From Candidatus Planktophila lacus (GTDB taxonomy: Bacteria > Actinomycetota > Actinomycetes > Nanopelagicales > Nanopelagicaceae), in contig NZ_CP016783.1 of NCBI RefSeq assembly GCF_002288385.1, forward strand, positions 248,001-312,000: a DNA stretch of 64,000 nucleotides, given 5' to 3'. Both the position numbers and the translations under genes were made by a program. Below, one piece after another: positions 1,946 through 26,477 of this stretch (position 1 is its first letter; each line of letters starts with the position of its first letter). The notes under the pieces are model-generated. The model did not search any database. It was not told the origin of the DNA and saw only the letters and a list, made by a program, of their open reading frames with translations.

Positions 1946-2707
1946 ATGTTAACCCTAACCGCAAATCAGTGGAACCTGGTCTATAACGTATTCTCGTTTG
2001 GACTTGTTTCAATGCTTGCTTGCACAATTTATACCCTTGTTTCACAGGCTCGCGTACTGCCTAAGTACCGCAACGCTCTCGTTATGTCATCAATGGTTAC
2101 ATTCATTGCTGGCTACCACTACTGGAGAATCTTTAACTCATTCTCAGAATCATCTGAAGGAATGGCAGTTAAGGTTTCTGGAGACCAGGGTGCATTCAAT
2201 GAGGCATACCGTTATGTTGACTGGCTACTAACTGTTCCTCTACTTCTTGTTGAAGTAATTGCAGTGCTTGCACTTGCAAAGGAAGTTTCAAAGTCACTCA
2301 TCATGCGTTTGGTTCCAGCATCAGCTGCGATGATCGCACTTGGCTACCCAGGTGAAATCTCAAACGACCAGAACACACAGATCCTTTACGGTGTTCTTTC
2401 AACACTTCCATTCCTCTACATCCTCTATGTCTTGTTCGTAGAGCTTGGTAAGTCACTTGATCGCCAGCCAGAAGGCGTTGCAGCAACCGTTGGTCGCTTG
2501 CGTCTCCTTCTTATCGCGACATGGGGCGTATACCCAGTTTCATACATTCTTGGTATGGGCGAAGGTATGGCATCAGCAGATCAGTTCGTTGGCGTACAGG
2601 TTGGTTACACAATCGCTGACGTTCTAGCTAAGTGCGTATTCGGTCTAACAATCTTGAAGATCGCTCGCATGAAGTCAATGGCTGAAGGCATGAAGGACGA
2701 TCACTAA
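1946..2707 (+). CDS. Actinorhodopsin, light-driven proton pump
   Basis: This 253-residue, seven-helix microbial rhodopsin pumps protons outward across the cytoplasmic membrane. Helix C reads RYVDWLLTVPLLLVE at residues 89-103. It supplies counterion D92, T96 and proton donor E103, equal to D97, T101 and E108 of proteorhodopsin, so it is a DTE-type H+ pump. L100 sits at the spectral tuning site (proteorhodopsin 105), and Leu there predicts green absorption. H58 in helix B matches the proteorhodopsin His that pairs with the counterion. K229 in DVLAK is the retinal Schiff-base lysine. No retinal biosynthesis gene is in the window. It is followed by a strong hairpin, so it is probably monocistronic and highly expressed. 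Confidence 0.97.
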   Translation: MLTLTANQWNLVYNVFSFGLVSMLACTIYTLVSQARVLPKYRNALVMSSMVTFIAGYHYWRIFNSFSESSEGMAVKVSGDQGAFNEAYRYVDWLLTVPLLLVEVIAVLALAKEVSKSLIMRLVPASAAMIALGYPGEISNDQNTQILYGVLSTLPFLYILYVLFVELGKSLDRQPEGVAATVGRLRLLLIATWGVYPVSYILGMGEGMASADQFVGVQVGYTIADVLAKCVFGLTILKIARMKSMAEGMKDDH

Positions 2708-21280: not shown

Positions 21281-22117
21281 ATGAGAATTCACCTCGGAGG
21301 CAGTAGCCGTCAGTCACTCGTGGCTGCACGTGCTGCACTCGATGTTGCAGTCAAGGGCGCAAGCGCGGCATCGGCTTCAGAGTTGTCTTCTCACCTCTTC
21401 GCAGCAGCAGATCTCTTTGCCGATAACACTTCTGTGCGTCGCGCAATTACAGATCCAGCACGCGATAAGGCAGCAAAGGCTGCACTTGTTAAAGATCTAT
21501 TTACAAAATCAACCGGAACGCTCGCTGTATCACTTCTCAGCGAACTCTCTGGTCTTCGTTGGTCAGCAACTAAGGATCTGGTCTATGCAACAGAGCAGTT
21601 AGCAATTGAGGCAGAAGCATCTGCAGCAAATATTGCTGGCGAACTCGATCGCGTAGAAGATGAGTTCTTCGAAACTTCACGCCTGGTTGCCGATAATTTC
21701 GAGCTCCGCAAGGCGCTCGTAAGTGTTGGTTCAACTGAGGCCAAGTCAGCGTTAATCGCTGAAGTACTTGGCAAGAAGGCATCTGCCTCAACAATCAAGA
21801 TCGCTAGCGCACTTGTTGCCTCCCTTCGCGGACGCAGCATCGAAGCAGCCTTCGCTGATTACCTCTTTGGTTTGGCAAATCGTCGCAACCGCTTAATCGC
21901 AGTTGTGCGTACAGCAACTGCTCTAACTGATGCACAGTCAAAGCGACTTGCAACAGTTCTTGAGAAGAACGTCGGTCAGCCAATCCGCATTAACGTACAA
22001 ATCGACCCAACAATTCTGGGTGGAGTTTCAATCAAGTTCGCAGATGAGTTAGTCGATGGAAGCGTTGTAAACCGCCTGGCAAATGCTGGGCGTGCACTAG
22101 TTGGTCAGTCAGCGTAA
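21281..22117 (+). CDS. atpH: ATP synthase F1 subunit delta
   Basis: This 278-residue subunit is about 100 residues longer than the E. coli protein, as is usual in Actinobacteria. The C-terminal part NRLIAVVRTATALTDAQSKRL and IDPTILGGVSIKFADELVDGSV match the OSCP/delta consensus. It joins the peripheral stalk to the alpha3beta3 head. It starts 5 bp after atpF. Confidence 0.95.
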   Translation: MRIHLGGSSRQSLVAARAALDVAVKGASAASASELSSHLFAAADLFADNTSVRRAITDPARDKAAKAALVKDLFTKSTGTLAVSLLSELSGLRWSATKDLVYATEQLAIEAEASAANIAGELDRVEDEFFETSRLVADNFELRKALVSVGSTEAKSALIAEVLGKKASASTIKIASALVASLRGRSIEAAFADYLFGLANRRNRLIAVVRTATALTDAQSKRLATVLEKNVGQPIRINVQIDPTILGGVSIKFADELVDGSVVNRLANAGRALVGQSA

Positions 22118-22179: not shown

Positions 22180-23820
22180 ATGGCAGAGCTCAAGATCCAA
22201 CCGAATGAAATTCGGGATGCCTTAGCGAATTTCGTTAAGTCATACGATCCAGGCGCCGCAGCTCGCGACGAAGTAGGAACAGTTAGCCAGGCAGGCGATG
22301 GAATCGCTCGCGTTGAGGGACTTCCTTCAACAATGGCAAACGAACTTCTACAGTTCGAGAACGGAACACTAGGTCTTGCACTTAACCTCGATGTGCGCGA
22401 GATCGGTGTTGTTATTCTCGGAAGTTACGCAGGAATTGAAGAAGGAACATCAGTACGCGGTACTGGTGAAATTCTTTCTGTACCAGTTGGTGATGGCTTC
22501 TTGGGTCGCGTTGTTGATCCACTTGGTCGCCCAATTGATGGCAAGGGTGAAATCAAACCTGACGCACGCCGTGCACTTGAACTACAGGCTCCCTCTGTAG
22601 TTGAGCGCCAGCCAGTTAAGGAACCACTTGCAACAGGTATTAAGGCGATCGATGCGATGACAGCGATTGGTCGCGGACAGCGCCAGTTGATCATCGGTGA
22701 TCGTCAGACCGGAAAGACTGCAGTTGCGGTAGATACGATCATTAACCAGCGCGAAAACTGGCTAACTGGCGATAAGAAGAAGCAAGTTAAATGTATCTAC
22801 GTTGCAATTGGTCAAAAGGGTTCAACGATCGCATCTGTTAAGGGCGCACTCGAAGAAGCTGGCGCAATGGAGTACACAACAATCGTCGCGTCCCCTGCAT
22901 CAGACCCAGCGGGCTTCAAGTACCTCGCTCCTTACACCGGTTCTGCAATTGGTCAGCACTGGATGTACAAGGGCGAGCACGTTCTAATTGTTTTCGATGA
23001 TTTATCAAAGCAAGCTGAGGCTTATCGTTCAGTCTCACTTCTACTTCGTCGTCCACCAGGCCGCGAAGCGTACCCAGGAGATGTTTTCTACTTACACTCA
23101 CGTTTGCTAGAACGTTGCGCAAAGCTTTCTGATGAACTCGGTGGCGGTTCAATGACTGGCCTTCCAATCATTGAAACAAAGGGAAATGACGTTTCTGCGT
23201 TCATTCCTACCAACGTTATTTCTATTACAGATGGTCAGTGCTTCCTTGAAACAGATCTCTTCAACGCAGGCGTTCGCCCAGCGATCAACGTAGGTGTATC
23301 TGTTTCTCGCGTTGGTGGTTCTGCACAGACAAAGGCGATGAAGAAGATCGCTGGTCGTCTGCGTCTTGATCTCGCACAGTTCCGTGAACTCGAAGCCTTC
23401 GCTGCTTTCGGTTCTGACCTAGATGCGGCATCAAAGGCTCAACTCGAGCGCGGTGCACGTATGGTTGAACTTCTAAAGCAAGGTCAGTACTCACCTTATT
23501 CACTAGAGCGTCAGATTGTTTCAATCTGGGCCGGAACTTCAGGAGAACTTGATTCTGTTGCAGTTGCTGATATCCGTCGCTTTGAATCTGAACTTCTCGA
23601 CTTCATCGGTCGCGAACGTAAAGATATCTTCACCGTAATTTCAGAGACCAAGATGCTCGAAGATGACACCGTTGCCAAGATGAAGACAGCAGTTGCTGAC
23701 TTCAAGAAGCAATTCAAATCTTCTGCTGCAGGAATCGTTAACGATGCACCTGCTGAAGCACTTGATTCAGAAGGCGCTGAAGCGATCACAAAGTTTGTGC
23801 CACCGGCGGTGAAGAAGTAA
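22180..23820 (+). CDS. atpA: ATP synthase F1 subunit alpha
   Basis: This non-catalytic nucleotide-binding subunit has 546 residues. Walker A is GDRQTGKT (173-180). The alpha signature [17 protein letters not shown] lies near residue 370. A C-terminal extension after about residue 510 is Ala/Glu-rich, as in mycobacterial alpha, where the extension restrains ATP hydrolysis. AAAGGGAGAACG precedes the ATG. The 62-bp gap before it is the longest in the structural part of the operon. Confidence 0.97.
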
Positions 23821-26160: not shown

Positions 26161-26412
26161 ATGGCACTTAACGTCGAACTAGTATCGCCAACACAACAGG
26201 TGTGGTCCGGGCAGGCAACTTTCGTTTCTGCTCGCACAACTGAAGGAGACCTCGGTGTCCTTCCAGATCACGCACCTTTGTTTGGCGTACTAGTCGACGG
26301 TGCCGTGAGCATCAAAGCAGTCGATGGAACGACGAAGGAATTCAACGTACAGGGCGGCTTCTTATCTGTCGCTAACAATCGCGTTTCGATACTTACAGAA
26401 ACGGTCGGTTAG
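26161..26412 (+). CDS. atpC: ATP synthase F1 subunit epsilon, beta-barrel domain only
   Basis: This 83-residue subunit holds only the N-terminal ten-stranded barrel, including GDLGVLPDHAPLFGVL and FNVQGGFLSVANNRVSILTE. The C-terminal two-helix inhibitory domain, which brings most epsilon subunits to about 120-135 residues, is missing. The next 60 nt are a terminator hairpin, so no frameshifted remnant is present. The barrel suffices for gamma and c-ring contact. Loss of the helices should remove epsilon-type inhibition of ATP hydrolysis. Confidence 0.93.
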   Translation: MALNVELVSPTQQVWSGQATFVSARTTEGDLGVLPDHAPLFGVLVDGAVSIKAVDGTTKEFNVQGGFLSVANNRVSILTETVG

Positions 26413-26416
26413 TTTC

Positions 26417-26477
26417 AAAAATTTCAGCTTCAGAAACATGAAAAGCAAAGGCACAGTTTCTTACACTGAAATTTTTT
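26417..26477. terminator. Bidirectional terminator between atpC and murA
   Basis: An 11-bp outer stem (26417-26427 with 26466-26476), an inner GAAAC/GTTTC pairing and T-runs on both strands end the rightward atp operon and the leftward murA gene. Confidence 0.9.

Follow-up and report, generated by a model that had tools for sequence, protein, structure and literature searches.

The canonical bacterial epsilon subunit of ATP synthase combines a barrel domain (PF02823) with a C-terminal inhibitory helical hairpin. Natural truncation of this subunit is already known elsewhere: in alpha-proteobacteria, epsilon is C-terminally truncated, and zeta is the substitute inhibitor proposed to take over (PMC9317440). 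A comparable form has been engineered in Bacillus PS3, where epsilon-deltaC carries a stop after Asp87 (PMC3170711). A second type of brake has been described in Mycobacterium smegmatis, in which a hook formed by alpha residues 520–548 catches gamma residues 212–220 and thereby stops the rotor from turning in the hydrolysis direction (PMC8617483). That paper draws the gamma loop at 205–227, names 212–220 as the contact, and regards these hook and loop features as unique to mycobacterial enzymes.

Here, we describe the ATP synthase of Candidatus Planktophila lacus, a member of the Nanopelagicaceae. Its epsilon subunit resembles the canonical one in its barrel fold, its position after beta and its single copy, but it lacks the hairpin, and the barrel residues that would face the hairpin have changed. 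It ends at nearly the same point as Bacillus PS3 epsilon-deltaC (PMC3170711), on whose barrel it superposes, although the latter is a laboratory deletion. Compared with M. smegmatis (PMC8617483), the enzyme aligns in its alpha extension and in the gamma stretch where the loop begins; M. smegmatis differs in retaining a short epsilon hairpin and in having a longer gamma 168–175 insert and a b-delta fusion. In contrast to zeta (PMC9317440), the candidate substitute here is an older alpha/gamma tether, common to relatives that keep the hairpin. A literature search, which covered mainly papers outside subscription, found no report of epsilon hairpin loss in freshwater Actinobacteria. With truncation as such already known, the interesting part is the double loss of hairpin and hook described below.

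Results

A barrel-only epsilon subunit in an otherwise ordinary operon

We analyzed a 64,000-nucleotide stretch of the Ca. P. lacus genome (hereafter, the window), the relevant features of which are collected in Table 1. The ATP synthase operon is intact, F-type and otherwise ordinary: the genes for a, c, b, delta, alpha, gamma and beta each carry their own Pfam domains, and b and delta are separate open reading frames (ORFs) with no b-delta fusion. The c subunit corresponds to PF00137 (Pfam), and, judged against the Na+ signature, it is probably of the H+ type. The delta subunit (278 aa, window 21281–22117) has an OSCP domain match that begins only at residue 113; the residues ahead of this match form an N-terminal extension, and b is encoded separately.

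The single epsilon gene of the genome is the last in the operon, beginning four bases past the beta stop with an ATG and ending with a TAG. PF02823 covers residues 3–81 (profile positions 1–79 of 80, 92 bits), and no second Pfam domain was found in the protein. The AlphaFold model (mean pLDDT 94.3) consists of strands only and contains no helix; the C-terminal inhibitory hairpin is therefore absent. Foldseek aligned the model over its length with the barrels of solved epsilon subunits, namely those of M. smegmatis (7jg5_H, TM 0.91) and of Bacillus PS3 (8yh8_H, TM 0.89), the latter from an entry titled 'epsilon C-terminal domain deleted'. The protein is thus a truncated F-type ATP synthase epsilon that keeps only the rotor half of the family, as an earlier note made from the DNA alone had proposed. 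The same note had the operon terminator following atpC at once. A hairpin at that place folds better than shuffled sequences (z −2.6), but a consensus terminator scan past atpC called none, so that this statement is only partly supported.

Table 1. Features of the window discussed in the text, with window positions
Feature	Position	Strand	Basis
Rhodopsin gene, putative light-driven pump, outside the epsilon mechanism	1988..2665	+	PF01036, E 3.6e-39 (contig 249988-250665)
atpA: alpha subunit, 546 aa, C-terminal extension	22180..23820	+	PF02874/PF00006/PF00306; C-terminus alignment
Alpha residues 527-546, conserved end of the C-terminal extension ('hook')	23758..23817	+	Class-wide alignment; pN/pS 0.26
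atpG: gamma subunit, 304 aa	23824..24738	+	PF00231; M. smegmatis gamma 6foc_G, E 1.1e-95
Gamma residues 193-202 (M. smegmatis gamma 201-210), start of the hook-receiving loop	24400..24429	+	Conserved with the alpha extension; drifted in the hookless clade
atpD: beta subunit, 473 aa	24735..26156	+	Pfam
atpC: epsilon subunit, 83 aa, barrel domain only	26161..26412	+	PF02823; AlphaFold model; Foldseek
Hairpin after atpC, between convergent genes	about 26417..26476	+	Folding z -2.6 vs shuffles

The hairpin was lost once within Nanopelagicaceae and about eight times in the class sample

We next considered how widely the short epsilon is distributed. Among 296 genomes of the order, 242 gave an epsilon match at E 0.001, all of them in the family coded f1. 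The remaining 54 were mostly incomplete, though G034 (genus g5) is 99% complete, and re-searching 30 of the 54 at E 1 produced no convincing match. Among the matches listed at E 0.001, open frames did not exceed 115 in length, except in G033 and G035 (g5, 125), G041 (g7, 126) and a divergent second copy in G258 (143); some of the short matches are fragments (for example, those in G073, G172, G225, G244, G251, G267 and G283). At the ORF level, epsilon measured 80–88 aa in 72 of 75 family genomes, a count made without G107, where the gene is cut by the end, and without the divergent extra copy of G258. The other three (G033, G035 and G041) have 122–123 aa with the hairpin present; two genera, g5 and g7, keep the long form outside the short clade. 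A search with the window protein, which keeps close relatives only, gave 82–87 aa in all 80 titled loci (the best 80 of 159 relatives), including a Ca. P. lacus locus whose epsilon is 98% identical to that of the window; L299 and L300 come from one genome, and some loci are the same contigs as genomes of our set. Short open frames were also scattered elsewhere in the phylum, with G530, G550 and G467 read at 85–88 aa.

Several side observations concern these searches. Loci L325–L328 and L330 carry a short epsilon (85–106 aa) in G530, G550, G467 and G492, and in G477 with a partial tail. In G258, the normal short epsilon is accompanied by part of a second, divergent ATP synthase whose epsilon has 140 residues (L148, contig C13), which may reflect contamination or transfer. 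Divergent epsilons of 135–140 aa also occur at L146 (G434, contig C211) and at L109 and L117 (G346 and G376). Seven metagenome-assembled records (L241, L251, L258, L260, L274, L305 and L307) have an epsilon 71–92% identical to that of the window and are titled Bifidobacterium breve or Streptomyces griseus; these titles look wrong. Finally, no epsilon match was found in four f14 genomes (G347, G362, G417 and G426) or in the family genome G034, yet these are 86–99% complete; the genes may lie in contig gaps, or the enzyme may be divergent.

We built a family tree from alpha (minus its extension), gamma and beta of 54 family genomes and 12 outgroups. The short-epsilon genomes formed one clade of 51 rows (bootstrap/SH-aLRT 100/100), and the long-epsilon G041, G033 and G035 fell outside it, with a grouping of their own at 85/38. 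The hairpin was therefore lost once within Nanopelagicaceae, in the ancestor of almost all members. The class sample comprised 132 rows (84 short, 47 long, one unread); its tree drops the f13 genomes G346 and G376, whose enzyme is divergent, together with 27 loci in which at most one long subunit was readable, including the divergent second copies of G258 and G434. The alpha, gamma and beta subunits of G346 and G376 stand apart, on a long branch, from all others of the class.

Across the class sample, epsilon length changed at least seven times (Fitch minimum). Read as losses only, the tree holds eight all-short clades: Nanopelagicaceae, part of f14, f7, f18, f3 with f36, f30, f33 and f37. Three of them (f7, f30 and f37) are single genomes, and the f7 epsilon (103 aa) retains some unalignable tail. 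Mapping on the tree, as the earlier note had suggested, thus gives one origin in the family and about eight separate losses in the class sample; loss of the epsilon C-terminal domain is real, inherited and repeated. Because genomes of f18, f36, f33, f3, f30 and f37 measure about 3–10 Mb, neither a reduced genome nor streamlining is required for hairpin loss.

Repeated change at barrel residues that face the hairpin in mycobacteria

Among 67 long-epsilon rows, 37 barrel positions were at least 75% conserved (a count of 38 includes one gap column). Only five of these, the equivalents of mycobacterial positions 64, 66, 84, 85 and 86, were lost in at least five of the eight loss clades (8/8, 7/8, 5/8, 6/8 and 6/8, respectively). 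In M. tuberculosis epsilon, barrel residue E85 hydrogen-bonds hairpin residue R113, and a change of R113 shifts K59–L70 and S83–88 (PMC6856130); R113 is present in 65 of the 67 long-epsilon rows. The epsilon contacts D47–A49 named in the same paper showed no convergent loss: position 48 was lost in three of eight clades, and 47 and 49 are not conserved. Loss at 84–86 is partly trivial since these positions adjoin the cut, which does not apply to 64 and 66. Thus, barrel residues that face the hairpin in mycobacteria changed repeatedly in the loss clades. In the other subunits, the sites lost alongside epsilon in at least four loss clades, some of which are tree neighbors, numbered seven in alpha, ten in beta and eight in gamma.

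The alpha hook and the gamma loop as a candidate second brake

The earlier note had pointed out that alpha keeps a C-terminal extension, and the C-terminus alignment confirmed this: almost every family sampled in the class carries the extension, as does the window, where it aligns with the hook region of M. smegmatis. This distribution contrasts with the uniqueness claimed for mycobacterial hook features in PMC8617483. Over 239 overlapping pairs from 42 family genomes with a short epsilon, pN/pS came to 0.26 at the hook end and 0.36 in the preceding linker, compared with 0.12 in the C-terminal domain and 0.05 in the core. The hook is therefore under purifying selection in short-epsilon relatives and constrained, though loosely.

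Both traits were read in 130 genomes. With a short epsilon, 60 had the hook and 15 lacked it; with a long epsilon, these numbers were 46 and nine. The counts are not independent of descent, and they score the hook by a length cut-off, under which G350 of f19 counts as having one even though its C-terminus lacks the motif. Two further alpha fragments from short-epsilon genomes also lack the extension. Since the extension is equally regular in long-epsilon genomes (46/55), it did not arise to replace epsilon. The earlier suggestion that it could take over control of hydrolysis is therefore only partly borne out: alignment with the hook region, constraint on the hook end and retention in 60 of 75 short-epsilon genomes speak for it, whereas the equal regularity in long-epsilon genomes and one clade that lost both elements do not. 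The Bacillus PS3 enzyme is not known to have an alpha hook.

On the gamma side, the stretch at the start of the loop (M. smegmatis 201–210) is conserved, the window included, and the residues aligned with 212–220 show no sequence conservation in any group; M. smegmatis gamma numbering was fixed by EGDDAGAD at 168 in G298, as in PMC8617483. Wherever alpha was read and carries the extension, gamma keeps R194 (105 of 105 rows). The 'fail-safe' insert of mycobacteria (gamma 168–175, which goes with b' Arg72) is shorter in Nanopelagicaceae.

On balance, we lean toward the following account. The hairpin was lost in the ancestor of nearly all Nanopelagicaceae, and hydrolysis would be held back by an alpha-hook/gamma-loop tether as in M. 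smegmatis. Epsilon in the window enzyme would then only transmit torque from the c-ring to gamma, while the tether would restrain wasteful ATP hydrolysis, acting in the hydrolysis direction only. With the alpha extension so widespread among the families sampled, the epsilon hairpin would have been a spare brake, open to repeated loss. Against the tether stand at least 17 short-epsilon genomes without the hook, so that some lineages live without both brakes, as well as the shorter gamma 168–175 insert and the separate b and delta genes; the missing sequence conservation in the docking loop itself also weakens the case.

A clade lacking both hairpin and hook

In genus g11, 17 of 19 genomes with a readable alpha C-terminus lack the hook (15 with full-length alpha; G114 and G116 as fragments), and G105 and G123 retain it. 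The hookless g11 genomes form one clade of 14 rows (99/98) that sits beside the lineage of the window. In 18 rows of this clade, 15 of 214 gamma sites conserved elsewhere in the family have changed, and seven of the 15 fall in gamma 193–202, a clustering reached in one of 20000 permutations. Elsewhere in the same clade, the changed sites amount to 1/421 in the alpha core, 4/425 in beta and 1/43 in epsilon. Twelve nested control clades of the family showed zero or one changed site in gamma 193–202, and total changed gamma sites numbered 12–18 in the hookless clade vs 0–7 in the control clades. R194 is kept in only one of 18 hookless-clade gamma rows, which include G106 by its place on the tree, its alpha C-terminus lying outside the locus. 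The stretch is near-identical in nine hook-bearing near relatives and varies among the hookless ones.

The strength of this cluster depends on the conservation cut-off and the reference. It was reached in zero to four of 5000 permutations at 80–90%, and in 55 and 73 of 5000 at 95%; with a whole-class reference, it was reached in 68 of 5000 at 75%, and at 90% there were two changed sites and no cluster. The changed stretch adjoins the published loop and overlaps it only in part. Another lineage without the hook, f19 (ten genomes; L087 and L316–L324), keeps the long epsilon and lacks the hook motif, and there the gamma change was not significantly repeated (2/7 conserved sites, P 0.17; R194 kept in 9/10). 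The co-decay of hook and gamma stretch is thus one event, a suggestive single case.

A tentative reading of the g11 clade is that, having neither epsilon hairpin nor alpha hook and with its gamma stretch drifting, its enzyme may turn both ways, limited only by MgADP inhibition, after changes in the order epsilon, hook, gamma decay. We infer that g11 enzymes run without a built-in brake. In terms of the account that we favor, this side clade would have lost the hook on top of the hairpin, and the gamma stretch beside the docking site would then have begun to drift.

The same clade bears on a different and less likely explanation, in which the hairpin was simply dispensable and lost neutrally, perhaps through genome streamlining, MgADP inhibition or a steady proton-motive force limits hydrolysis, and the alpha extension has no part in braking here. 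In its favor, the 14-row clade has lost the hook as well as the epsilon hairpin, and the hook is under looser constraint than the core (0.26 vs 0.05). However, conservation of the hook goes with conservation of the neighboring gamma stretch, and in one clade the two decay jointly; moreover, the same epsilon loss took place in the 3–10-Mb genomes noted above.

Epsilon length does not track rhodopsin

The earlier note had credited the organism with a light-driven proton pump, and a rhodopsin gene, encoding a putative pump, is indeed present in the window (Table 1). Loss of the epsilon brake, it had further suggested, might ease reversible or fast synthesis at a low proton-motive force; in full, the idea is an adaptation to light-driven pumping in which rhodopsin supplies that force. 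Rhodopsin is frequent in the order (231 of 296 genomes; 86 of 108 of good quality), and in Bacillus PS3 and Escherichia coli, enzymes deprived of the epsilon C-domain synthesize more ATP, with the inhibited epsilon form possibly needing extra proton-motive force (PMC3170711). Easier synthesis at low proton-motive force would be carried over to the window enzyme by analogy with this Bacillus PS3 and E. coli work. The physiological effect is unreadable from sequence, because hairpin deletion raises synthesis in those two enzymes yet lowers ATPase in B. subtilis (PMC6692558).

The distribution of the two traits speaks against rhodopsin as the driver. Across the class sample, 19 of 148 genomes carry rhodopsin, one of them (G378) by a marginal match below the cut-off. 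Both traits were coded for 131 tree rows, in which the absence of rhodopsin is uncertain where genomes are incomplete. Among rows with a short epsilon, rhodopsin was present in 51 from the family (Nanopelagicaceae) and absent from 12 of the family and 21 others; a long epsilon occurred with rhodopsin in eight rows (two family rows of g5 and six others) and without it in one family and 38 other rows. G414, which is not on the tree, has both rhodopsin and a long epsilon; G434 gave no rhodopsin match, in a search whose controls also hold no rhodopsin. Only one of the eight loss lineages includes a rhodopsin carrier in the sample. A phylogenetic pair test of epsilon against rhodopsin yielded five pairs and had no power. 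Comparing epsilon length with and without rhodopsin, as the earlier note had advised, thus showed that length does not follow rhodopsin; a tie between the two is not supported, and an adaptation to light-driven pumping is very improbable.

Least probable by far is an artefact or split gene (a frameshift, which the earlier note had already denied, a wrong stop or a hairpin encoded elsewhere), for which we found no supporting evidence: the window genome is a single contig and 99.98% complete, an actinobacterial epsilon C-domain profile gives a single match in it, at E 0.19, and independent genomes agree on the short frame (72/75 at the ORF level and 80/80 titled loci), which also rules out a sequencing error.

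Discussion

The braking of hydrolysis in ATP synthase is known in detail for only a few model enzymes. The epsilon hairpin was lost about eight times, and in nearly all of these cases a likely second brake was there already, so that swapping natural variants can directly test which brake matters. The hook and the gamma loop are discussed as mycobacterial drug targets; in our sample, the alpha extension is nearly class-wide and comes with natural knock-outs. If the order of loss proposed for g11 (epsilon, then hook, then gamma decay) is true, this clade would amount to a natural dissection of the tether.
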